From NCBI GenBank assembly GCA_002838185.1, contig CP017948.1:310001-374000 (forward strand): a stretch of DNA of 64,000 bases. Reading direction: 5' to 3'. The position numbers and the translations under genes were made by a program. The notes beneath the pieces are model-generated. The model worked only from the letters and a program-made list of their open reading frames with translations. It was not told where the DNA came from and made no database searches. Each line of letters begins with the position of its first letter. The stretch's first letter is position 1. Of this stretch, positions 29,915 through 61,591 are shown in pieces. Origin of the DNA: Tenericutes bacterium MO-XQ (GTDB lineage Bacteria; Bacillota_I; Bacilli_A; Acholeplasmatales; Acholeplasmataceae).

Positions 29915-30320
29915 TTTAATCGCACTTGGATATTCACTATTACTTGCTTTAGTATCATTCATCTTTTTTAGAGAATATGCTGTATGGGCAGTCTTAGGTA
30001 GTGCAACAGCACTATTTAACCATTCATTAACGATTAGATTAACCAAACAAAAATTTAATCCTGTGAAACTCGCTTACCATTTGGTGTTAAGATTTGTGAT
30101 GTATGTCATTATGATTGCATTTGCATATTTTGATCAAAGAGCAAACGGCACAGATGAACTCACAAGAGTATTTATATTTTTACTTTTAGGATTCTCATCG
30201 ATTAGAATAGGTATACTAATCTATGCAACACCGCCTTTTAAAGCACATAGATTAAAAGATGATACCGATAATATTGTTCCTTATGATGATGAAGAGGAGG
30301 ATGATGAAGATGATAGATAA
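29892..30320 (+). CDS. atpI: ATP synthase protein I-like
   Basis: 142 residues from ATG 29892, which follows GAGGAA. Four transmembrane helices and a very acidic C-terminal tail (DDEEEDDEDDR) that contains the next gene's ribosome site. AtpI proteins assist c-ring assembly. Identification is from topology and position; the sequence is poorly conserved in this family. Confidence 0.7.
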   Translation: MKDVSVINLIALGYSLLLALVSFIFFREYAVWAVLGSATALFNHSLTIRLTKQKFNPVKLAYHLVLRFVMYVIMIAFAYFDQRANGTDELTRVFIFLLLGFSSIRIGILIYATPPFKAHRLKDDTDNIVPYDDEEEDDEDDR

Positions 30321-30990
30321 TATCATAGATTATATTTTAAATTTACCTGTGTATTTTATAACATCGTTAGGCATCATTTTATTCTTAATCATTTTGAGTA
30401 TATGGGTAGGAAGTTATGTTTCTAAATTAGATGTTAGAGATAAACCAAATAAGTTTGTAACAGTGATTATACAGTTTATTGATTTCTTTAATTCATATGT
30501 TAAAAGTTATATCGGTAAACATTGGAAGTTTGTTACACCTATTGCCTTAACACTAGCATTATACGTAGCGATTTCTAATATGAGTGGTATCTTTGGATTA
30601 GAAGCACCAACAAAATTTACTGCAATTACATTTAGTTTATCGATTATATCGTTTTTTGTAGTTCAGATTACAGGGTTTATTTCTCAAAGTTGGAAACATT
30701 TCTTAGGGATTTTCCAACCGATTTGGATTTTATTCCCATTAAACATTGTGAGTGAATTCACACCAATCTTATCCATGGCACTGCGTTTATTCGGTAATAT
30801 CGTCAGTGGCTCAGTGATTTTATTACTCGTCTATAAACTCACAGGATGGGCTTCAGTGTTGGTCGCACCAGCATTCCATGTGATCTTTGATATTGGATTT
30901 GGACTGGTTCAAACACTGGTATTAGTTTTATTAACAATCATCTTTGCATCAACTAAAATCAATGAAGATGATTTAGGTTTTGAAAATTAA
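30310..30990 (+). CDS. atpB: F-type ATP synthase subunit a
   Basis: 226 residues from ATG 30310, 9 bases after GAGGAGG. Five to six helices; the essential stator arginine lies in SMALRLFGNIVSGSV near residue 160. It forms the ion half-channels facing the c ring. Overlaps the end of atpI. Earlier in-frame ATGs fall before or inside the ribosome site. Confidence 0.93.
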   Translation: MIDNIIDYILNLPVYFITSLGIILFLIILSIWVGSYVSKLDVRDKPNKFVTVIIQFIDFFNSYVKSYIGKHWKFVTPIALTLALYVAISNMSGIFGLEAPTKFTAITFSLSIISFFVVQITGFISQSWKHFLGIFQPIWILFPLNIVSEFTPILSMALRLFGNIVSGSVILLLVYKLTGWASVLVAPAFHVIFDIGFGLVQTLVLVLLTIIFASTKINEDDLGFEN

Positions 30991-31031
30991 AAAATAATAT
31001 ATAAAATATAAAAAATAAAGGAGATTATATT

Positions 31032-31313
31032 ATGTTCGAAATATTTAATGTATTAATTCCAAATATTATGGAAGTTGTAGCGAATGAGTTCTTTAGAAGC
31101 GGTATGGCATATATTGGTGCTGGTATTGCGGTAACAACTGGTTTTGGTACTGGTATTGGTCAAGGGATTGCTGCTGCAAAAGCTGTTGAAGCTGTTGGAC
31201 GTCAACCAGAAGCTGCAGGTAAAATCACATCAACCATGCTTATAGGACAAGCGGTTGCTGAAACAACAGGTTTATACGGTTTAATCATTGCGTTCATATT
31301 AACAGGAAAATAA
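31032..31313 (+). CDS. atpE: F-type ATP synthase subunit c with sodium-binding signature
   Basis: 93 residues, two transmembrane helices and a loop with GRQPE. The ion-binding residues are Gln44 (GTGIGQG), Glu77, Thr78, Thr79 and Tyr82 ([11 protein letters not shown]). In the sodium-translocating synthases of Ilyobacter and Propionigenium the ligands are Gln32, Glu65, Ser66, Thr67 and Tyr70; spacing here is identical, with Thr for Ser. Proton-type c subunits of Bacilli lack the Gln and the S/T-T pair. The N-terminus is about 12 residues longer than usual. GGAG ribosome site. Confidence 0.95.
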
Positions 31314-31334
31314 TAAAAAAGGGATTGATGATTT

Positions 31335-31868
31335 GTGAATGAAGTATTTGATCAAATAACTGAAATCGTCGAAAGTGGATTGTATTCTATTCAAAATACT
31401 CCTGAAATCGTCGTCTTAAATATACTTGCCCTACTCGTTTTATTATTTTTCGTTAGAACGTTTCTATGGAAAAAGGTAAGTTTATATTTAGAAAAAAGAC
31501 AAGAAGCTTTATCTGAAGCAATGGATCAAGCTGACGAAGAAAGAAGAGTTGCTAAGTCTTTACAAGAAAAAGCAATCAAAGAATATGAAGGCATGAAGGA
31601 AGAAACAAGACAGTTAAAAGAAAGACTAACTCAAGAAGCATATAAAGAGCAAGAAAAACTCATTACAAGTGCTAAAGAAGAGGCAAAAAGACGTCTTGAA
31701 CAAGCTGAAAAAGACATTGAGTATGAAATTGCTCAAGCAAATGAAGAAATCAAACAATCGATTAAAACGGTTGCGTTTTCTGCTGCATCTAAGATTGTAA
31801 AAAGAGAAATCAATGAATCCGTTCATCAAGATATCATCGATGAGATATTAAAAGAAAGCGAAGTATAA
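31335..31868 (+). CDS. atpF: F-type ATP synthase subunit b
   Basis: 177 residues, GTG start. N-terminal membrane helix (ILALLVLLFFVRTFLW near residue 35) followed by a long charged coiled coil, the peripheral stalk. AGGG lies about 12 bases before the GTG, so initiation may be modest. In the standard position between c and delta. Confidence 0.94.
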   Translation: MNEVFDQITEIVESGLYSIQNTPEIVVLNILALLVLLFFVRTFLWKKVSLYLEKRQEALSEAMDQADEERRVAKSLQEKAIKEYEGMKEETRQLKERLTQEAYKEQEKLITSAKEEAKRRLEQAEKDIEYEIAQANEEIKQSIKTVAFSAASKIVKREINESVHQDIIDEILKESEV

Positions 31869-31871
31869 TTT

Positions 31872-32378
31872 ATGAGACAGTTTGCTAAAGCACTGCATCA
31901 TATTGCGCTAGAAAAGAATAAGTTAGATGTTTTAAGTTATCAGTTTGATGAACTTAGAGATCTTATCAAAGAACATCCAACATGGTTAAAGATGGTGGAT
32001 TCTCCGATGTTATCTAACAAGGAAAAAGAAGCTAAAATTGATGAACTCGGATTTGATCCAACTTTTTTGGCTTTTATTAAAGTTTTATCAAGTAAACATT
32101 ACATGCAATATATTGATGAAATATATGATGAATGGATACACTTAGTAAGAACGACTCAAAAGATTGCACATCTTCATGTTTATTTGGCAAAACCTATGAC
32201 AAAAATACAAGAAGAAAAATTAATGCAAACATTAAAACCAAGATTCAAAAATCAGACAATTTCTTTACATAAAACAATTGATCCTTCTTTAATTGGTGGT
32301 ATTAAAATTACCCATCAAGGACAAGCATTAGACCGATCAGTTGCACGTGAGTTAGAAGAATTGTTTACAACGATTTAA
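31872..32378 (+). CDS. atpH: F-type ATP synthase subunit delta
   Basis: 168 residues. Starts [13 protein letters not shown], as delta subunits do (normally YAxAL/YAKAL), and ends [25 protein letters not shown], the conserved C-terminal motif. Links the peripheral stalk to F1. No clear ribosome site; probably coupled to atpF, which ends 3 bases upstream. Confidence 0.92.
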
Positions 32379-32391
32379 GGTGGTGACAACA

Positions 32392-33897
32392 TTGTCAAAA
32401 ATAAAAATCAAAGAAATGACTGAGGTCATTAAAAAGCAAATAGAATCATTTGAACAAGACGTCAAACTTGAAAATATTGGTAAAGTTTTATCAGTAGGTG
32501 ATGGGATTGCGATTGTTTATGGTCTTCAACAAGCGATGATGGGTGAACTTTTAGAATTCCCACACGGTGTTAAAGGGTTAGTATTTAACTTAGAAGAACA
32601 CAACGTTGGTGTTATTCTTTTAGGTGAATCTAACTTAATTAAAGAAGGCGACATGGTTAAAACAACTAAACGTATTTTTGAAGTGCCAGTAGGTGAATCA
32701 TTATTAGGTAGAGTTGTAAATCCATTAGGAGAACCACTTGATGCACTTGGTTCAATTAAAACAGAAAAGAAAATGCCTGTTGAAAAGAAGGCAAGAGGTG
32801 TTATTGATAGAGGATCTATTAATGCATCTATGGAAACTGGTATTAAAGTGATTGATGCCCTTGTTCCTATTGGACGTGGACAAAGAGAGTTAATTATTGG
32901 CGATAGACAAACTGGTAAAACAACGATTGCAGTTGATGCAATTCTAAACCAAAAAGGTAAAGATGTTGTTTGTATCTATGTTGCGATTGGTCAAAAAGAT
33001 TCAAGTGTAACTGCACTTGTAGAGTTATTCAAAAAACATCAAGCTATGGATTACACTATTGTTGTTAATGCAGGTGCCTCTAAAGAAGGTACATTACAAT
33101 ATCTTGCACCATTCTCTGGTGTAACGATGGCAGAGTATTTCATGGAAAAAGGCAAAGATGTTTTAATCGTTTACGATGATTTATCAAAACATGCGGTTGC
33201 TTATCGTGAGTTATCATTACTCCTTAGACGTCCACCAGGAAGAGAGGCTTACCCTGGAGATGTATTCTATCTTCATTCAAGATTATTAGAACGTTCTGCG
33301 AAGTTAAATAAAGAACTTGGCGGAGGGTCTATTACAGCATTACCGATTATTGAAACAAAAGCTGGAGATATTTCAGCATACATTTCAACAAACGTTATTT
33401 CAATTACAGATGGTCAAATCTTCTTAGAAGCAGAATTATTCTATTCAGGTATTCGCCCAGCGATTAATGCCGGATTATCAGTGTCACGTGTTGGTGGGGC
33501 TGCACAATGGAATGCCATGAAGAAAGTTGCTGGTACACTAAGAATTAACTTAGCAAACTACCGCGAATTAGAATCATTTGCACAGTTTGGTTCTGATTTA
33601 GATCAATCAGCTAAGCGTCGTCTTGAAAGAGGTAGAAAAACAGTTGAAATGTTAAAACAAGATGTTCATGAACTTGTTGATATGCCAACACAAATTGTGA
33701 TTATTTATGCACTTTCAAAAGGTATGATCGATGATTTAAATCTAGATCAAGTCAAAGCACTTGAAAAAGAAATCATGCAAGGGTTACGCATGAATGATTT
33801 GGGTCAAAAGATTAAAAAACATCTTGATGAAACAAAAAAAATACCAGAAGATAAGGATCTAGAACAATTTATCAACGGATTAAAGAGGTTGATATAA
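32392..33897 (+). CDS. atpA: F-type ATP synthase subunit alpha
   Basis: 501 residues. The start is set at TTG 32392, 8 bases after AAGGTGG, because the product then begins (M)[16 protein letters not shown], aligning with other alpha subunits; GTGs at 32380 and 32383 overlap the ribosome site. Walker [14 protein letters not shown] near residue 170, and the alpha signature [14 protein letters not shown]. Confidence 0.96.
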
Positions 33898-33898
33898 G

Positions 33899-36523
<2,625 letters not shown>

Positions 36524-36783: not shown

Positions 36784-37857
36784 GTCAATTCAAGTGCAAC
36801 GCATCATAGTGCTCATTGATTACTTCTAATGGAGTTTTAAAGTTGATACATTTTCTTGGTCTATTATTCAAACGATTTAATACTTCATTAACTTCATGAT
36901 GATCAGTTTGTGACAAATCCATTCCTTTTGGATAATATTCTCTTAATAAACCATTTGTATTTTCATTAGTTCCTTTTTGCCATGCACAATAAGGATCAGC
37001 GAAATACATCTGACAATTTAACTTCTCTTCAATCTCTTGATATCTAGAAAATTCTTTTCCACGGTCACATGTTATTGTTTTTACAAGTTCCGATGGAAAC
37101 TGTGATAATAATTCAATCATCGCAGCCGTGACATTCTCACTTGTCCTATCGGGCAACAGTTTAACAAGATACAGTCTTGATTTACGTTCAACTAATGTGA
37201 CAAAACAGTATTTACTTTTGCGCTGATGATTAAATCTTCCTGATTCAACTGTATCAGCTTCCCAGTGACCTATGGATTGTCTTTTATAAACTTCTTTAGG
37301 CCGTTTTTTTATCGGTTTACCAATATTGAATCGGCCTCTTGTTTCTGCAGGTCGTTTAAACTTGCCTTTACGTCTTAATTTTGTCATATTTCCTTTGTTA
37401 AGATATTTCTTATGGATCCATCTATAAATAGTTGAAAAACAGGGGATTTTTTCAGGTTGTCCTTTATCTCTCATAGCTATTTGTTCTGGAGACCATTGTT
37501 GATTCAATTTGCTTTCAATATACTCTTTGATGATTGGTGATATTTTTACCTTTCTATGGCTATTGATTCGACGTTTGTTGTATTTTTTTTGTGCGACATG
37601 AGGTAAGTATTTGTAACGATATCCACATGAATTTCTCTTTAACTCTCTAGATATCGTACTAGGACTCCTCTTTACTGCTTTACTAATCTGTCTAATACTC
37701 ACGCCTGATAACCATAACTGATATATACATGTTCTTTCTTCTATGGTAAGATGTATGTAGTTCATAGTTTCTCCTTTTGTGTTTGTTTGGTCACTTACAT
37801 TATAAAGGAATCTATGAACTTTTTTGATTTTTATTTAGTGTTGCACTTGTAATTATA
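36784..37857 (-). mobile_element. IS30-family insertion sequence
   Basis: Imperfect terminal inverted repeats: AATTCAAGTGCAAC at 36787-36800 and GTTGCACTTGTAATT at 37840-37854 (core CAAGTGCAAC/GTTGCACTTG identical). One transposase gene fills the element. Exact ends and target duplication are not clear. It sits between two terminators, between the convergent atp operon and yigZ. Confidence 0.85.
36785..37765 (-). CDS. IS30-family transposase
   Basis: 326 residues, full length. N-terminal helix-turn-helix HLTIEERTCIYQLWLSGVSIRQISK and SPSTISRELKRN. DDE catalytic residues are in HWEADTVESG, TCDRGKEFSRY and KGTNENTNGLLREYYPKG. Cut-and-paste or copy-out transposition of the surrounding element. 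The C-terminus runs into the left inverted repeat. No frameshift or stop, so the element may be active. Confidence 0.95.
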   Translation of the reverse strand: MNYIHLTIEERTCIYQLWLSGVSIRQISKAVKRSPSTISRELKRNSCGYRYKYLPHVAQKKYNKRRINSHRKVKISPIIKEYIESKLNQQWSPEQIAMRDKGQPEKIPCFSTIYRWIHKKYLNKGNMTKLRRKGKFKRPAETRGRFNIGKPIKKRPKEVYKRQSIGHWEADTVESGRFNHQRKSKYCFVTLVERKSRLYLVKLLPDRTSENVTAAMIELLSQFPSELVKTITCDRGKEFSRYQEIEEKLNCQMYFADPYCAWQKGTNENTNGLLREYYPKGMDLSQTDHHEVNEVLNRLNNRPRKCINFKTPLEVINEHYDALHLN

Positions 37858-54604: not shown

Positions 54605-54630
54605 TTTAAATATAAAGGGAGGTATTGAAG

Positions 54631-55014
54631 ATGGGAAGACCAAAAGGAACACCTAACAGAAAGCCTATGAGATACTTTACTAAAGATGAGAAATATGAAT
54701 ATGTGAAAATGATTATTGAAGGTGAGATCAGTTTAACACAACTATCGAAGAACAACGATTTATCTTTAGGTATGTTATCCACTTGGGTAAAGAGATATCA
54801 GGAAGGAGGTATTGAAGCGCTCGAAAATAAAAGAAAGCCTGGCAATCCACTGTCGAAGTATCTAAGGAGAAAGTCACTCACACCTACGGAACAACTTGAA
54901 TATGAGAATATGAAATTAAAGATAGAAAATGAACGCTTAAAAAAAGGATACTCCACAGAGGAGGTGATGGTCATAAGACGAAAAAGATCATCCAAAAAGA
55001 ATACGAAATCATAA
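54631..55014 (+). CDS. IS3-family OrfA (copy 3)
   Basis: 127 residues from ATG 54631, after AAGGGAGG. MGRPKGTPNRKPMRYF opening, helix-turn-helix SLTQLSKNNDLSLGMLSTWVKRYQEGG, then a coiled coil (TPTEQLEYENMKLKIENERLKKG). A seven-A run at 54939-54945 followed by GG is in phase for -1 frameshifting into orfB, with AGGAGGTGATGG a short distance downstream (54959-54970). Confidence 0.92.
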   Translation: MGRPKGTPNRKPMRYFTKDEKYEYVKMIIEGEISLTQLSKNNDLSLGMLSTWVKRYQEGGIEALENKRKPGNPLSKYLRRKSLTPTEQLEYENMKLKIENERLKKGYSTEEVMVIRRKRSSKKNTKS

Positions 55015-55871
55015 AATTATTAAGTAATAATTATAATGTTAAAGGATTATGTCGTTATATGGAAGTATCGAGATCTGGTTATTACAAATGGATAAAAAGA
55101 AAAGGCCAGTTAAACCAATATGAAATCAATAGAAAAGACTTAACTGCACTACTTATTGAAATGCATGAAAAACATTCTACATGGGGATATAGACATCTAG
55201 CTGATCAAATTAGAAAAGAAACTGGATGGATATTTTCAGACCTCTTAGCACACAGGTGCTGTAAAGCTGCAGGGATTAGATCAACAGCAAGAAAACATTA
55301 CAACCCACCAGGTGAAGAGCATGAAATTTATCCCAATCTTATTGGGAAGAACTTCACAGCATCGAGACCCTTCGAAAAAGTCTGTACAGATACCACAAGT
55401 TTTTATCATAAAAGTATCAAATATGATTGGAACATCTATCTTGATCTATACAACAATGAAATCATAAGTTATGATTTAAGGATAAGCAAATCAGGACATG
55501 GTGCGAAAAATCATTATAGTGCGTTAAAACGCTTCTTAAAAACTAAAGAAAAAAGAGGATATAAAAGCCAGGTAACGATTCTCCACTCGGACCAAGGCGC
55601 AATATATACCTCCAGAGCATTTAATGCTCACTTTGATTCTACCATAAAACGTTCAATGTCGCGTATAGCAACACCAACAGATAATCCAGTTTTAGAATCA
55701 ATTAATGGTTGGATTAAAGATGAACTGATGATTGATTTTAATATGAAATACAGCGAAGATATACAACAAACGATCAAAGATTATGTTAAATACTATAACG
55801 AAACAAGAACAGCTTATGCCCTAAAATACAAAAGCCCAGTTCAATATCGAACTGAGCAATTATTTAACTAA
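54945..55871 (+). CDS. IS3-family OrfB transposase (copy 3), expressed by -1 frameshift
   Basis: Open from the slip site at 54945; the segment KTKKIIQKEYEIIKLL is conserved in this family and lies before the first ATG at 55059, so translation must begin in OrfA. DDE motifs: CTDTTSFYHKSIKYDWNIYLDLY, ILHSDQGAIYTSRAF and PVLESINGWIKDEL. Ends with KYKSPVQYRTEQ. Intact. Confidence 0.92.
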   Translation, partial: RILHRGGDGHKTKKIIQKEYEIIKLLSNNYNVKGLCRYMEVSRSGYYKWIKRKGQLNQYEINRKDLTALLIEMHEKHSTWGYRHLADQIRKETGWIFSDLLAHRCCKAAGIRSTARKHYNPPGEEHEIYPNLIGKNFTASRPFEKVCTDTTSFYHKSIKYDWNIYLDLYNNEIISYDLRISKSGHGAKNHYSALKRFLKTKEKRGYKSQVTILHSDQGAIYTSRAFNAHFDSTIKRSMSRIATPTDNPVLESINGWIKDELMIDFNMKYSEDIQQTIKDYVKYYNETRTAYALKYKSPVQYRTEQLFN

Positions 55872-55922: not shown

Positions 55923-57536
55923 TTATATGATATAGAATAATAATAATGATAACGATGATATATAAAAGATAAATAGATAATTTGCAGTTTCGAAAGTCAT
56001 CTGAAATGATCTGATCACTTGAACAGGCTTATAATCTTTATCGATATAGTATTTAAAGAGTATATACCCAATGCCAATATATATGATGTAATCTAGCCAT
56101 GCTTTTAGATCAAATAGCTTAACATAAGATAAATCTAAGCCATAGATCAGTTCGCCAATGGGTTTGTAAAAAATACCTATACCGATACATAATAAACCAA
56201 TAGTGATGATGGATACAAACTGTTTAGCATCTTTTCGCTTTTCAAGATCAACTTTTTTCCCAAATAATATTTGTGAAAACTTAATAAAAGAAGTAACAGT
56301 TCCAACATTGACCAATGTGTATAATAACATTTTGAAAGGTTCTGCTTTAAAACTATACTTAATAAGTGTTTTAGACACATACCCATTAAAAAATGGTGCA
56401 CCACTAATCGATAACATACCAATAATCAAGAAAATAGATGTGATTGGCATGGATCTAAAAACCCCTCTAATCGCATAAATCTTTTTCGTCTTATACTCAT
56501 ATATGATTAATCCGGCACAAAGAAATAGTAAAGACTTAAATAATGCATGATTAATAATATGCATAAGTCCACCAGTAAAAGATAATCCATATCCAAAAGA
56601 TAACCCCATCATCATGAGTCCAATTTGAGATATGGTATGATGTGCGAGTATTTGTTTTAAATCTTTTTGAACTAAAGCTAGAATAACCCCTGCAAGAGCT
56701 GTTAATGCACCAATATAAAAGAACACTTCAGTCATATGATATGTATCATAACCAAACATATAGACATGAATTCTTATGAATAAGTATAATCCACCTTTAA
56801 CAAGTAATCCAGAAAGTAAAGCTGATAAAGAAGTATAAGCAACGCCGTGTGCTTTAGGCAACCAAGTAAATAGAGGGAATAACGCAGATTTAACACTGAT
56901 TCCAGAAATCATTAATACGTATGCGAGTTTTACCATTTGATGGTTTTGGTGTAACCCTATATTTTCTTGTAAGTAACTGATATTAATAGAACCATAAGTG
57001 TAATATAAAATGATAATACCAATTAAGAAAAACATCGCACCTAATGTGTTTAATAGTAGATAATAGATGGCAGCTTTTAATGAAGGACCATTTTTCTTAT
57101 AAGAGATTAAAATGGTAATTAATACAGTGATGAGTTCTAAGAAGATAAATAAGTTAAATAAATCATTTGTTTGTAAAAATGCTAAAAATATACCTTCTAA
57201 AAACATTAAGAAAAATAAATATTTGTGATAGATGCGATTTGTTTTATATGTGTAAAATAAAACAGAAGTCCACATGAATATAGATAAACCGATAAATGTA
57301 AGAGATAATGTATCATTTTTTAAGGTTATCGCAAACTTATCATCCCATCCACCTAAAACAATATAAGCTACATTTGGATTTTGTGTGTAATGATACACAT
57401 ATAATCCAAATAAAGTTGCGAGTATCAGTTGAGATAAAAACACAATAGATGTTACATGCTTGTTTTTAACCAAGTAAATGATAATACCCGTAAAAATGGG
57501 TATAAAAATAAAGAATACAGGAAATAATTCTACCAT
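55923..57536 (-). CDS. mrpD: Mrp-type antiporter subunit D (proton-pumping NuoN/MbhH-like)
   Basis: 537 residues, about 14 helices. Proton_antipo_M core with the conserved TM5 Glu in FLELITVLITILISY, TM7 Lys in SGISVKSALFPLFTWLPKAHGVAYTSLSALLSG, and HHTISQIGLMMMGL. The only antiporter-like large subunit in the operon. Last gene of the minus-strand operon; the IS3 copy 3 right end is 3-5 bases after its stop, so any native terminator is displaced. Confidence 0.9.
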   Translation of the reverse strand: MVELFPVFFIFIPIFTGIIIYLVKNKHVTSIVFLSQLILATLFGLYVYHYTQNPNVAYIVLGGWDDKFAITLKNDTLSLTFIGLSIFMWTSVLFYTYKTNRIYHKYLFFLMFLEGIFLAFLQTNDLFNLFIFLELITVLITILISYKKNGPSLKAAIYYLLLNTLGAMFFLIGIIILYYTYGSINISYLQENIGLHQNHQMVKLAYVLMISGISVKSALFPLFTWLPKAHGVAYTSLSALLSGLLVKGGLYLFIRIHVYMFGYDTYHMTEVFFYIGALTALAGVILALVQKDLKQILAHHTISQIGLMMMGLSFGYGLSFTGGLMHIINHALFKSLLFLCAGLIIYEYKTKKIYAIRGVFRSMPITSIFLIIGMLSISGAPFFNGYVSKTLIKYSFKAEPFKMLLYTLVNVGTVTSFIKFSQILFGKKVDLEKRKDAKQFVSIITIGLLCIGIGIFYKPIGELIYGLDLSYVKLFDLKAWLDYIIYIGIGYILFKYYIDKDYKPVQVIRSFQMTFETANYLFIFYISSLSLLLFYII

Positions 57537-57865
57537 TATTTATCTCCTTTCAAAATGACTTTCCATTCAATACTTCCATAATGATGGAAAATCTTTATAC
57601 ATAGCATAAGTGCTAAAGAAGTAATGGTTGATCCAATAACGATGGTTGTGATCATCAAAGCTTGTGGGATAGGATCTACAATCTCTATGCCTAAGCTAGA
57701 TAAAATAGGAATCACTCCACCTTCATAAGCTCCTAAATTTAAAAATAAGAGTATCGTTCCAGCTTCAACAATTGTGATGCAAAAAACAGATTTAATGATG
57801 TTTTTACTTACAGATAAGCCGTAGATACCAACTAAGATGACAATAAAGGATAAGATTGGATTCAT
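57536..57865 (-). CDS. mrpC: Mrp-type antiporter subunit C (NuoK-like)
   Basis: 109 residues, three helices. NuoK/MnhC pattern: IVILVGIYGLSVSKNIIKSVFCITIVEAGTILLFL with a buried Glu, and DPIPQALMITTIVIGSTITSLALML. It shares one base with mrpD. Small membrane subunit contacting the D subunit. Confidence 0.9.
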   Translation of the reverse strand: MNPILSFIVILVGIYGLSVSKNIIKSVFCITIVEAGTILLFLNLGAYEGGVIPILSSLGIEIVDPIPQALMITTIVIGSTITSLALMLCIKIFHHYGSIEWKVILKGDK

Positions 57866-57866
57866 A

Positions 57867-58586
57867 TTATCTGCCCTCCTTTAAAAATGCTGTAAAGATT
57901 GCGACTAAACCTAAGGATACTTTCGCTCCAATCAAAATGTTCATTAGGGTTAAGAAGATTGCTTTTTGATCAAGAGAGGCATCTAGTCTAAAGAAGTTTG
58001 TAAAGAGAACACCTCTGGTTAAATAAGACAGAGAAGCGGTTAATACTAAAACAATAAACAATATCTTTTCGATGGTTAAAACTACATGAACGTTTACTGT
58101 TTTTGTGATATCAATATAATATAAAATCAAAATTGCGGTTGCAACAATCGCTCCACCTTGAAATCCTCCACCAGGAGATAAATGACCATTGACGATTACA
58201 TAAATACCAAACAGTAACATGATTGGATATAAGAGTCTACTAAATGTGATAAATAGTTCTGGTGTTTTTTGTTTATCTAGCATGAAAGTTGCATTTTTCT
58301 CATCAATGGAATGTTCTGAAATAAGCATCACACCGGCAACTGCAATTAATAAGATTGCAGCTTCAAAGATACTATCAAAGAGCCTGTAATCTAAATAGAT
58401 GCCCGTCACATAATTATAACTTCCGGTATCTTGAAAGCCATTGGCATAATAAAATAATTTTCCATCATCATTATAAATCGTACTAAAATCACTTATCGAA
58501 GTGATAAATACAAACAAGATAAATCCGAGTAATAAAACTAAAGATATACGTCTAATCAATGGACTCACCTTCCTTAAATGTAACAA
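57867..58586 (-). CDS. mrpB: Mrp subunit B fused to an MbhE/MrpA-C-terminal-like helix pair
   Basis: 239 residues. The N-terminal about 100 residues resemble MbhE (YVTGIYLDYRLFDSIFEAAILLIAVAGVMLI), a piece that in classical Mrp is the end of MrpA. The C-terminal MnhB domain has VNGHLSPGGGFQGGAIVATAIL. Overlaps the upstream gene by 35 bases. In Bacillus mrpB encodes only the second part. Confidence 0.85.
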   Translation of the reverse strand: MLHLRKVSPLIRRISLVLLLGFILFVFITSISDFSTIYNDDGKLFYYANGFQDTGSYNYVTGIYLDYRLFDSIFEAAILLIAVAGVMLISEHSIDEKNATFMLDKQKTPELFITFSRLLYPIMLLFGIYVIVNGHLSPGGGFQGGAIVATAILILYYIDITKTVNVHVVLTIEKILFIVLVLTASLSYLTRGVLFTNFFRLDASLDQKAIFLTLMNILIGAKVSLGLVAIFTAFLKEGR

Positions 58587-59100
58587 TTTCTATGAAGTCA
58601 AGGTGAAATGTCTTTTTGATTAAATGATCCATAAGTATAGAGCTTTGTTTTCCTTTTAAGATAAATTTTTGCTTATCGTGATCATAAGATATGATTAAAT
58701 CAACATTTAAATCTTTTGTCAAAGCTTCATCTGAACCCTTAATGTCAGAACATACATTCATTTTTAAATGATTATCATCCACAAAACTCGTTAGAACTTC
58801 ATAGAGTTCTATGTTTTTCTCATCAATCGTCTCATCAAGTTCATTGTGATCAACTCGATCTAAAACAATAAACTCTCCTTGTCTAGATATACTGATGACA
58901 TAAATTAATGGGATAATCGCAGAACCAATAGCAACTTCAGCAATTGCTACATCTGGTGCTTGATTCAAAACATATAAAGTTGCAGCTACTAATCCAAAAG
59001 AAGAAATGTAGATAATGATTGTAAAGTTTTCTTTATGAAATACTATGGCTATCGCAATAATAATCAAGAGTATTTGTAATAATGTAGGAATGATTGTCAT
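58552..59100 (-). CDS. MbhD-like (DUF4040) antiporter subunit with soluble tail
   Basis: 182 residues. Residues 1-75 are three helices with the DUF4040/MbhD motif VLNQAPDVAIAEVAIGSAIIPLIYV, matching the C-terminal part of MrpA. Residues about 76-182 are a soluble, acidic alpha/beta-like domain (NVCSDIKGSDEALTKDLNVDLIISYD...) that I do not recognise and that is not part of usual MbhD. The large NuoL-like N-terminal part of MrpA is absent from this operon. Confidence 0.8.
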   Translation of the reverse strand: MTIIPTLLQILLIIIAIAIVFHKENFTIIIYISSFGLVAATLYVLNQAPDVAIAEVAIGSAIIPLIYVISISRQGEFIVLDRVDHNELDETIDEKNIELYEVLTSFVDDNHLKMNVCSDIKGSDEALTKDLNVDLIISYDHDKQKFILKGKQSSILMDHLIKKTFHLDFIEIVTFKEGESID

Positions 59101-59402
59101 CTTTGATCTACCTCCATTTCTTTTAAAGGTACGCCAATTAAGTATGCTGATCTTATATTGACATGAGAACTGATTGGATTGGTGATAATCAAGAAAATAA
59201 TTAAGATGAATAAACGGATACCATATTCAAATTGCCAAGATGCAAAAATAAGTGCGAATAGTACTAAAAAACTAGCAACTGTATCGATGGTTGCAGCTGT
59301 TAGTATTCTTGTGTATAGGTTTTTAAGTGCGAATATGGCTATCATACCAAAGATGATAAAGAACCAGGATATGATTAAAATGATATATGCAACAACATTC
59401 AT
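59097..59402 (-). CDS. mrpG: Mrp-type antiporter subunit G
   Basis: 101 residues, three helices. MnhG pattern GMIAIFALKNLYTRILTAATIDTVASFLVLFALIF and NPISSHVNIRSAYLIGV, where the usual reading is N-P-x-S/A-A-H-x-x-x-R-A-A. ATGA overlap with the next gene. Confidence 0.88.
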   Translation of the reverse strand: MNVVAYIILIISWFFIIFGMIAIFALKNLYTRILTAATIDTVASFLVLFALIFASWQFEYGIRLFILIIFLIITNPISSHVNIRSAYLIGVPLKEMEVDQR

Positions 59403-59674
59403 TTTTCTCTACCCCCAGCCATAATGAACTTAGAAAGTAAAGTCATAGTTAGAAAACCAATGATACCGTATGAAATCGCTATATCAAGCAAAATAAGACG
59501 ATCTGTATAGATTGCATATAACGCAATAAACAAAACAACTTTTGCTGATATTAAGTTTAACATTAAAATTTTATCCCAAAGTGTTTTAGAATAAATAAGT
59601 CTAATAAAAGATAAAATCATTGCAACCACAAGTATGAATAATGTGATTAAGATAAATATATTAATTGTTGTCAT
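59399..59674 (-). CDS. mrpF: Mrp-type antiporter subunit F
   Basis: 91 residues, three helices. MnhF pattern RLIYSKTLWDKILMLNLISAKVVLFIALYAI...LLDIAISYGIIGFL with the conserved Asp in the D-x-A-x-x-Y region. Overlaps both neighbours by a few bases. Confidence 0.88.
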   Translation of the reverse strand: MTTINIFILITLFILVVAMILSFIRLIYSKTLWDKILMLNLISAKVVLFIALYAIYTDRLILLDIAISYGIIGFLTMTLLSKFIMAGGREK

Positions 59675-60170
59675 CTTCGTTTACCTCTTTAGATAGCAAG
59701 TATTTTTCAAATCGATCTCTTATGGGTTTTGCCAGTGTTTCATGATCAGTTTTTGGATCAGCTAATACCATTACAAATATGGTCTTATCAATCACTTCAA
59801 TACTAATAGTTCCAGGTGTTAAAGTAATCGAGTTAGCAACGATTGCAACTTGAACATTGGTTAAATGTTCTAAAGAAATTTTAAAGACCACAGGTTCATA
59901 CTTTTGTTTAATTAGATTGATTACATATAAAATAGAGGATCTAAATATTTCATAAAAAAGAATAAAAAAATAGATGAAAAGCTTCGTGATTTTAATCCCT
60001 TTAAATCGAAAGCCATTTTCATCATATAAAACCTCATATGTAAATAAGGATACTAAAAAAGAAATCGTCACACCAAAAACAATCGTTCTTATTTCAAAAT
60101 TGAAATTAAATAAGAACCATAGCATTAGCATGACGATAAAAAATTTTAATCTAGTGATTATATTTTTCAT
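59661..60170 (-). CDS. mrpE: Mrp-type antiporter subunit E
   Basis: 169 residues from ATG 60170, 10 bases after GGGAG; an ATG at 60179 is too close to the ribosome site. Two N-terminal helices, a third near residue 60, then a soluble domain with VAIVANSITLTPGTISIEV, the MnhE motif. First gene of the operon. Operon order E-F-G-(MbhD)-(MbhE+B)-C-D. Confidence 0.9.
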   Translation of the reverse strand: MKNIITRLKFFIVMLMLWFLFNFNFEIRTIVFGVTISFLVSLFTYEVLYDENGFRFKGIKITKLFIYFFILFYEIFRSSILYVINLIKQKYEPVVFKISLEHLTNVQVAIVANSITLTPGTISIEVIDKTIFVMVLADPKTDHETLAKPIRDRFEKYLLSKEVNEDDNN

Positions 60171-60202
60171 CTTGATCATTCTCCCAAATGATTTTTGTTA
60201 TT

Positions 60203-60231
60203 ATTATACCATACCCAATTTATGTTGATAA
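60203..60231 (-). promoter_or_regulatory. Promoter of the Mrp-type operon
   Basis: Minus strand TTATCA (60231-60226), 17 bases, TATAAT (60208-60203) with TG one base upstream (extended -10). Confidence 0.65.
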
Positions 60232-60292
60232 CCGGAAATGATGTATAATAAATCTTTAAAATATGATATCATAAAATAAAAAGGAGTTTCCT

Positions 60293-60724
60293 ATGAAAAA
60301 CAAAACAAAAACATTTTTTAAAGGATTTAAAGAATTTGTTACAAAAGGTAATATTATAGACCTCGCTGTTGCGTTTATCATTGGTGCTGCATTTCGTGCA
60401 ATCATCACATCTTTAGTCAATGATATCATCATGCCTTTGGTTGCATCGTTAACTGGTGAACAAAACTTTACTGATCTCATGTGGGTAATTAATAATGCAG
60501 AAGTTAGATATGGTGCTTTTATTCAAGCAATCGTTGAATTTTTAATCATTGCTTTTAGTATCTATGCTGCAATCACACTTGTTGTTAGAAGAAAACAATT
60601 CTTAGAAAGAGTTGAAAAAGAAAGTGCTCCAAAAGAGGAAGAAGTTAAAGAAGTAGTAATACCAGAAGATATAAAACTTTTAACTGAAATTAGAGATCAG
60701 TTAAAACAAATGAAAAAAGAATAA
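60293..60724 (+). CDS. mscL: Large-conductance mechanosensitive channel
   Basis: 143 residues. N-terminal FFKGFKEFVTKGNIIDLAVAFIIGAAFRAIITSLVNDIIMPL covers the S1 helix and pore-lining TM1 with the glycine-rich constriction. TM2 is IQAIVEFLIIAFSIYAAI and the C-terminal helix is charged. Opens under membrane tension to release solutes, important in a wall-less cell. AAAAAGGAG ribosome site; 9 bases before degV. Confidence 0.95.
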   Translation: MKNKTKTFFKGFKEFVTKGNIIDLAVAFIIGAAFRAIITSLVNDIIMPLVASLTGEQNFTDLMWVINNAEVRYGAFIQAIVEFLIIAFSIYAAITLVVRRKQFLERVEKESAPKEEEVKEVVIPEDIKLLTEIRDQLKQMKKE

Positions 60725-60733
60725 GGGGTTTAT

Positions 60734-61591
60734 ATGAAAAAAGTTGCGATTTTAACATGTAGTAATGCTGGACTTGATTACCTAGATTATCCAAAAGATA
60801 TTCGTATTTTAAGATCTGTTATCCATTTTAGCTCAGATGATAAAGTCTATAATGATTACATTGATATGGATGCGAAAACATTTTATGAAAGAATAAAAAA
60901 AGATCCTAATGATATTCCAAAGACATCATATGTATCGATTGGTACAATGATTGAAAATTTTGAAGAACTTGAAAAAGAAGGGTATGAAGAAGCATTAGTC
61001 ATCGTCATTTCTTCTGAGTTAAGCGGATTATATGAAGCTGTTAAAAGAACTGCAAGTGAAGTTAACATTAAAGTGACTGCATTTGATTCAAAAACTTTAG
61101 CTTATGGTGAAGCATACATGGTTTTAGAGGCTCATAGACTTGCAGAAGAAGGCAAATCGGTTGCTGAGATTATTCCTCATCTCGAAAAAATTAGGGATAA
61201 TGATATGATCTATTTTGCAGTAGATACACTTTTATACCTAGTTAAAAATGGACGCTTATCAAAGCTTCAAGGTACATTAGGAACCATGCTTCAAATGAAA
61301 CCTGTGCTATTTATTGGTGAAAGTGGAAAAGTAGAAACCCTAGAAAAAATTAGAACAACTTCCAAAGCACATAAACGTGTATTAGAAAAATATATCGAAG
61401 ACACTAAAGGTAAAAATGTCATCACCTATATTTCTCATGCACATGCTGATGAATATGTTGCTTGGTTTGTTGAAAAGATTAAAGAAGAGTTCCCTGAAAG
61501 AGAAATCGTTGTAGCTTATTTAACACCAGTTGTTGGTGCACATACAGGACCTAAAGGTATTGGTATAGGATACATCTTATTAGATAAATAA
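60734..61591 (+). CDS. DegV-family fatty-acid-binding protein (second copy)
   Basis: 285 residues. Same fold as the copy at 38584: TCSNAGLDYLDYPKDI, SYVSIGTMIENFEEL, SSELSGLYEAVKR, VDTLLYLVKNGRLSKLQG, TPVVGAHTGPKGIGIG. The opening motif is CSNAGLD, in place of D-S-T/S-x-G-L-D. Different DegV/FakB copies select fatty acids by chain or saturation. Cotranscribed with mscL. Confidence 0.87.
   Translation: MKKVAILTCSNAGLDYLDYPKDIRILRSVIHFSSDDKVYNDYIDMDAKTFYERIKKDPNDIPKTSYVSIGTMIENFEELEKEGYEEALVIVISSELSGLYEAVKRTASEVNIKVTAFDSKTLAYGEAYMVLEAHRLAEEGKSVAEIIPHLEKIRDNDMIYFAVDTLLYLVKNGRLSKLQGTLGTMLQMKPVLFIGESGKVETLEKIRTTSKAHKRVLEKYIEDTKGKNVITYISHAHADEYVAWFVEKIKEEFPEREIVVAYLTPVVGAHTGPKGIGIGYILLDK

Follow-up and report, generated by a model that had tools for sequence, protein, structure and literature searches.

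Group 3 Mrp systems possess mrpD without mrpA, carry two MrpB-type parts and occur in a stand-alone form in Pyrococcus furiosus, with the gene order mrpEFGBB'CD (PMC8415708). In that study, the P. furiosus Mrp is called unique for its lack of an energy-input module, two other Mrp sets are noted in the same organism, and deletion leaves the cells acid-sensitive, with Na+ as the likely coupling ion. The complex is described there as a guard against acidification that works at the expense of Na+-driven ATP synthesis, and it is proposed to be bidirectional (PMC8415708). Here we analyzed a 64,000-nucleotide stretch of contig CP017948.1 from Tenericutes bacterium MO-XQ (the window), which encodes an Mrp-type operon at window positions 55923-60179. 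The operon shares with the P. furiosus Mrp its gene content and order, the absence of mrpA, a single D subunit and the absence of an adjacent redox module, so that the likeness is one of gene content and order. It differs in belonging to a bacterial lineage and in having an MbhD with an extra soluble domain. We conclude that the operon probably encodes a Group 3 (MrpA-less) Mrp that works as a self-sufficient antiporter, like the one that stands alone in P. furiosus.

The arrangement is not without precedent, since P. furiosus has the same one, and the kind of operon is already known: Group 3 Mrp without mrpA is in print, including the stand-alone form (PMC8415708). Within the literature searched, what is new is a broad bacterial lineage of the stand-alone form, which provides the sole antiporter-like gene in ten genomes, together with a separate D clade marked by a short helix at the end of the protein, and the occurrence of D as a lone gene in Izemoplasma-type genomes. 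The titles and abstract openings returned by our literature searches held no description of a bacterial mrpA-less set, which is no proof of absence.

Other described systems resemble the operon in part. The Mrp half of the membrane-bound hydrogenase (MBH) and of MBS (6cfw, 6u8y) has the same order, A-B-C-D-E-F-G-H, and provides the best solved sequence matches for window D, C, F, MbhD and E+B, MbsE being an E+B fusion as well; by contrast, the window operon lacks redox and NuoH-type subunits, its D forms a separate clade, and the MbsH-type rows compared lack the C-terminal end of window D, a transmembrane (TM) helix, a short helix and a second TM helix. Group 1/2 Mrp of Bacillus, Vibrio and Dietzia (7qru, 6z16, 7d3u) shares the D fold and the conserved proton-path residues, whereas the window type has no MrpA N-terminal channel, another gene order and a D outside the MrpD clade (100/100). 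In the cyanobacterial Mrp of an Acaryochloris plasmid (L126), the MbhD/DUF4040 subunit is also 182 amino acids (aa) long with a soluble extension, but that system has two D-like subunits and its extension is not sequence-alignable to that of the window.

Gene content and occurrence of the operon

The operon consists of seven minus-strand open reading frames (ORFs), all open, in the order mrpE-F-G-mbhD-(mbhE+mrpB)-C-D. This order, and the presence of one large subunit without mrpA, had been proposed in the initial annotation, and both are borne out by the ORFs and their Pfam matches. The genes encode MrpE (59661..60179, 172 aa; PF01899 MNHE, 1.6e-23), which has orthologs in the sister genomes, MrpF (59399..59674, 91 aa; PF04066 MrpF_PhaF, 1.1e-10), MrpG (59097..59402, 101 aa; PF03334 PhaG_MnhG_YufB, 8.3e-16), an MbhD-like subunit (58552..59100, 182 aa; PF13244 MbhD, 3.4e-17 over residues 10-74), an MbhE+MrpB fusion (57867..58586, 239 aa; PF04039 MnhB, 2.4e-20), the NuoK-like MrpC (57536..57865, 109 aa; PF00420 Oxidored_q2, 1.2e-16; aligned to 6u8y_G and 6cfw_G) and the single antiporter subunit, the MrpD-like D (55923..57536, 537 aa; PF00361 Proton_antipo_M, 2e-58). 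All seven matches lie above the curated cut-offs, and their E-values (1e-10 to 2e-58) exclude chance. Among the NCBIfam matches shown, MrpG just exceeds one cut-off (TIGR01300, 63.3 bits against 63.1), while the other six proteins exceed none. The top PDB match of the MbhE+MrpB protein is MbsE of MBS (6u8y_E), which is fused likewise. Neighbouring ORFs overlap by 14, 4, 4, 35 and 1 bases, with one 1-base gap. Homologs of MrpB, C, D, E, F and G lie within one operon, which marks it as an Mrp (CPA3) system, and mrpD alone, two MrpB-type parts and no redox module place it with stand-alone Group 3.

The genome measures 2.16 Mb in two contigs, with completeness of 100% by the tool's figure and contamination of 6.92. 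Three PF00361 proteins, window D and two MBS-type subunits, and two MnhB proteins are present in it. None of the three is an MrpA: the PF00361 search found no MrpA with an N-terminal channel domain in the operon or anywhere in the genome. A full mrpA elsewhere, which the initial annotation had named as grounds for abandoning its reading, was thus not found. No NuoB, C, D, H, I or hydrogenase subunit is encoded at 55923-60179, and no redox module stands beside the operon in the window or among the neighbours in related genera.

In a first search of 61 genomes (this genome and 60 relatives), window-type D was full-length or nearly so in ten, with a broken partial match in an eleventh, G035. Five of the ten (G001, G003, G012, G013 and G025) have no other PF00361 protein. 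The genome of the sister species, G003, is a single contig, 99% complete, in which the operon is intact and D is the only antiporter-like protein. A second set of 11 further genomes was taken via loci from a scan of public contigs. Five of these, namely Thermohalobacter berrensis, Haloplasma contractile, Candidatus Petromonas tenebris and the genomes of loci L081 and L093, likewise have one D and no further PF00361 protein; the remaining six have two to four PF00361 proteins each, and one of the six, Peloplasma aerotolerans (G067), is identical, judged by contig and coordinates, with G019 from the first search.

The scan itself, made over public genome contigs with nine D orthologs, yielded 64 loci. 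By our own classification rules, the complete seven-gene set is present at 36 of these; at eight, D stands with some operon genes and at least one missing, mostly at contig ends; 17 have D without C, three of which start at a contig end (L062, L080 and L102); and three (L109, L111 and L113) are other systems with several large subunits each. No second antiporter gene was found downstream in the 27 of 36 complete loci with at least 4 kb of downstream sequence, a weak 229-aa minus-strand ORF at L069 being set aside. MbhE and MrpB are fused in Mycoplasmatota loci and split in clostridial loci; the form in Acetoanaerobium noterae comprises eight genes and its MbhD is short. In a phylum sample of 392 genomes, 20 match the D profile at 1e-60 and 11 of these at 1e-200 or better, the weaker matches including other D types.

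The gene set is complete and conserved, does not depend on a second antiporter-like subunit, and has intact proton-path residues. Of the two roles proposed in the initial annotation, the minimal stand-alone antiporter appears, from the gene content of these genomes, to be the right one, since the operon is intact and D is the sole PF00361 protein in several of them. The other, a fragment that works with another complex, is not supported, because D is the sole PF00361 protein in close relatives and the G003 operon is intact without an insertion sequence (IS). As several bacterial genomes, H. contractile and T. berrensis included, have no PF00361 machine besides the reduced set, MrpA-less ion exchange and its stoichiometry can be tested there without the background of a sister complex. 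Its presence in many wall-less bacteria and clostridia amounts to a natural test of the number of parts that a minimal exchanger needs.

The D subunit and the MbhD soluble domain

The phylogeny of D was examined in a tree of 37 of 102 rows and in a quick tree of 86 rows, from which 16 of the 102 were omitted as partial, redundant or very long; residues were counted over 59 clade rows. In the 37-row tree, the 13 window-type D rows form one clade (100/100) on a long stem of 1.28 changes per column, and Bacillus-type MrpD and MrpA form two other clades (100/100 each). Window D falls outside the Bacillus-type MrpD clade, so that a grouping with ordinary Bacillus Mrp, the second observation that would have spoken against the initial annotation, is not seen; it also stands apart from MrpA, MbhH and MbsH. 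The backbone of this tree lacks resolution, with support of 66/21 for the tie between D and MbhH. The proposed likeness to archaeal Mbh therefore stands for gene order and for the best PDB sequence matches of D, which are MbhH and MbsH, but not for the position of D in the trees, where it forms its own clade.

The 86-row tree is concordant, with a window-type D clade of 50 rows (Shimodaira-Hasegawa-like approximate likelihood ratio test, SH-aLRT, 100). Within the clade, the earliest branches are Acetoanaerobium and the clostridial rows; Haloplasma comes next, followed by the Izemoplasma-type and Acholeplasmataceae rows, an order that vertical descent with losses would give. In the same tree, 14 orphan D rows form one clade (SH-aLRT 99) nested within the operon D clade.

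Lone D-type genes, unaccompanied by any other mrp gene in the sequence covered at the locus, are found at L074, L077, L078, L082, L086-L089, L092, L095, L097, L100 and L103; they come from Izemoplasma-type genomes and have retained the proton-path residues. A full window-type operon is directly preceded, at L075:9968-11966, by genes for a second D of the window type and for a 115-aa protein. The latter has a relative (29%, 2e-11) in L088, where its gene follows the lone D at a distance of a few genes.

Residues K216, H230, K247, H326, H330, K334, F338 and K389 of D do not vary among the 59 clade members; E134 is kept in 57 of them and replaced by Asp in two. Alignment to 7qru_D and 6z16_D equates E134, K216, K247, H330, K334, F338 and K389 with MrpD E137, K219, K250, H333, K337, F341 and K392, in the numbering of PMC9568556 and PMC7419157. 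Phe393 of Bacillus MrpD is said to help block a periplasmic route (PMC9568556); the corresponding position in the D clade is Ser, Thr or Ala in 58 of 59 members and Asp in one. Instead of the His of the SAYLH/SALLH motif, D has H230, as do MbhH, HyfB and HyfF.

The AlphaFold2 model of D (predicted local distance difference test, pLDDT, 91) superimposes on Bacillus MrpD (7qru_D) over residues 2-467 (464 residues, Z 44.9, root mean square deviation (rmsd) 1.8) and on complex I NuoL over residues 2-521 (Z 42.1, rmsd 3.0). Beyond the MrpD-like core, the model predicts a C-terminal TM-short helix-TM extension at 477-536, with helices at 477-498, 503-510 (the short one) and 515-536. The extension is present in eight of eight clade members aligned and missing in the MrpD, own MbsH-type and first-D rows compared; among the rows compared, H', G006 D2 and NuoL extend further.

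The MbhD-like subunit is predicted to have three TM helices (residues 1-74) followed by a soluble domain of ~100 residues (76-175; AlphaFold2 model, pLDDT 87), and its TM part matches MbhD with Z 11.7 over 74 residues. By the positive-inside rule, the soluble domain would face the cytoplasm. In the model it is a beta-alpha domain. Its best structural matches, to lobes of LysR-type and of solute-binding proteins, have Z 6 to 6.8, a level that can be background; the match to CbnR has VIA-align Z 6.8 and rmsd 2.5 over 78 residues. Foldseek gave no match below 0.001 for the extension, and an SBP_bac_3 match was found in one of 35 MbhD members, weakly (0.018), so that a PBP2-like fold is suggested at most. 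NCBIfam PRK07377.1-4 covers the window MbhD at 8-172 and matches 26 of the 35 members. In view of this family match, and as the cyanobacterial MbhD/DUF4040 subunit is extended too, an extended MbhD as a trait unique to the D clade was rejected. MbhD is short (97 aa) in Acetoanaerobium, which branches deepest within the D clade in both trees.

A bolder reading, which we regard as tentative and less likely than not, is that D represents a third antiporter-subunit lineage. In it, an MrpD core that ends in a reduced NuoL/MrpA-type part (TM15, short lateral helix, TM16) would do the work of both MrpA and MrpD, with one proton path and one Na+ path giving near-electroneutral exchange; the cytoplasmic MbhD domain would serve as a ligand- or ion-sensing switch lobe, and Izemoplasma lineages would have freed D as a lone gene.

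Proposed ion paths and direction of exchange

If the operon encodes a self-sufficient Group 3 antiporter, solved Mrp and MBH structures suggest that protons would follow a single path through D (E134/K216, K247-H330-K334 and K389), which E134 would couple to an Na+ path formed by MbhD Glu55, MrpC Glu34 and MbhE Asp71/Glu75. MbhD Glu55 is invariant in 35 rows. MbhE Asp71 and Glu75 are invariant in nine orthologs and align, in the matched ranges, with D792/E796 of A. flavithermus MrpA, and MrpC Glu34 lies at the position of MBH MbhG Asp37 (alignment to 6cfw_G and 6u8y_G). The Bacillus model moves 2 H+ per Na+ via MrpA and MrpD; a complex with a single proton path would be expected to move fewer protons per Na+ than a two-channel Mrp, perhaps one. 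As suggested by the P. furiosus deletion work, Na+ entry coupled to H+ exit could hold the cytoplasmic pH during fermentation, and reverse running could top up the Na+ gradient. A pH-holding role carried over from the P. furiosus Mrp is the most likely one. The ion setting also speaks for this reading: the F-type ATP synthase has a Na+-type c subunit, and genes for RnfC and a V-type ATPase are present.

Several observations weigh against this interpretation. The MrpA/ND5 His of SAYLH/SALLH is absent from the D clade rows printed, so that D is without the histidine switch that is central to the Bacillus model (PMC9568556). Most clostridial rows, and Haloplasma, have Gln in place of MrpC Glu34. 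Window MrpF has Asn40 where four matched PDB MrpF, MbhB and MbsB chains have Asp, and the Asp38 position is Asn in 39 of 39 window-type rows; as this Asp is proposed for the Na+ path in Bacillus-type Mrp, the Asn argues against a simple copy of that path. This genome and some others also contain further Mrp-type sets, with which cross-talk may occur. Finally, the activity, direction and stoichiometry of the exchanger are inferred. The Asp-to-Asn change as a private mark of the clade was rejected, because Asn is also found in L109 and L111. Current Mrp/complex I schemes themselves disagree on the large subunit that drives exchange, one centring on the MrpA histidine switch (PMC9568556).

Among the other explanations, it is rather unlikely that the complex runs mainly in reverse, using the proton gradient to expel Na+ for sodium tolerance as in Bacillus. 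The genome encodes a V-type ATPase, which could provide such a gradient, and several of the named carriers (Haloplasma, Thermohalobacter and Maledivibacter) are marine or halophilic. The window, however, also contains F-type ATP synthase genes (30259-36523), and the c subunit (31032-31313) carries GQG...AETTGLY, which we take to be a Na+-binding signature, so that this synthase looks Na+-driven. Moreover, if exchange is near 1:1, a single proton path could do little against a Na+ gradient directed inward, and the P. furiosus Mrp does not widen the Na+ range for growth (PMC8415708).

The redox complex, the insertion element and neighbouring features

The statement that no hydrogenase or quinone module adjoins the operon is correct for the locus, yet a complete MBS/complex-I-like redox complex with its own Mrp half is encoded 1.45 Mb away, at 1.81-1.82 Mb (L004:2969-13696), where the other two PF00361 proteins and the other MnhB protein cluster. 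Its 13 genes run E-F-G-MbhD-(E+B)-C-H-H'-NuoH-NuoB-NuoC-NuoD and end with the gene for a 669-aa protein with ferredoxin-type, Fer4_20 and pyridine-nucleotide-oxidoreductase domains; H' matches MbsH' over almost its full length (7.5e-68). The domains of the 669-aa protein suggest that this Acholeplasmataceae genome encodes an ion pump linked to ferredoxin and NAD(P)H.

The presence of this complex, together with MbhH and MbsH as the closest solved structures by sequence, raises the question of whether the operon is a spare or exchangeable antiporter half serving an MBS-like complex encoded elsewhere. We consider this highly improbable. The redox complex already has its own E, F, G, D, E+B, C, H and H' set, and in ten genomes (G001, the single-contig G003 and eight others) the operon occurs without any other PF00361 protein, for which reason a partner MBS-like complex as a general requirement was rejected. 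Conversely, G004, of the same genus, has the redox complex without a window-type operon, and G002 has neither.

A degraded Mrp that lost mrpA or a second D through the IS3-like transposase pair lying in the gap behind mrpD, between it and the next gene (plus strand, 54625..55871; ORFs 54625-55014 and 55059-55871; not part of the system), can be dismissed, because G003 has the same seven genes in the same succession with the D stop 25 bases from the next gene and no IS, its D is of equal length and 91% identical over all 537 residues, window D stops at the residue at which its closest orthologs stop, and the gene set is equal in the 36 complete loci. Truncation of the operon by the IS was likewise rejected on the intact G003 operon. 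A second transposase-like ORF, IS30-like by eye, lies behind the ATP synthase genes (36785-37765).

Two other loci differ in their large subunits or partners. At L035:1-8142 (G030), an Mrp set with two D subunits stands ahead of genes for proteins of 280 and 466 aa; the 466-aa protein is 35% related to the 669-aa redox protein, which hints at a redox-linked Mrp. L111:2564-12000 (Blautia) combines one Mrp small-subunit set with four large antiporter-like subunits in a row.

The 52 bases at 60180-60231, included in the span first annotated, are DNA upstream of mrpE. They contain a candidate sigma-70-type promoter on the minus strand (60203..60231; TTATCA-17-TATAAT with TG), found by consensus scan only and without statistical weight, the scan giving 39 sites against 44.0 in shuffles. 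No riboswitch was matched by Rfam in the window, nor in 59500-60800 at E up to 1, and the search of six related loci returned unrelated RNAs only. Divergent from mrpE across a gap of 113 bases is an ORF at 60293-60724 that presumably encodes an MscL-like channel, and this pairing is preserved in G001 and G003.

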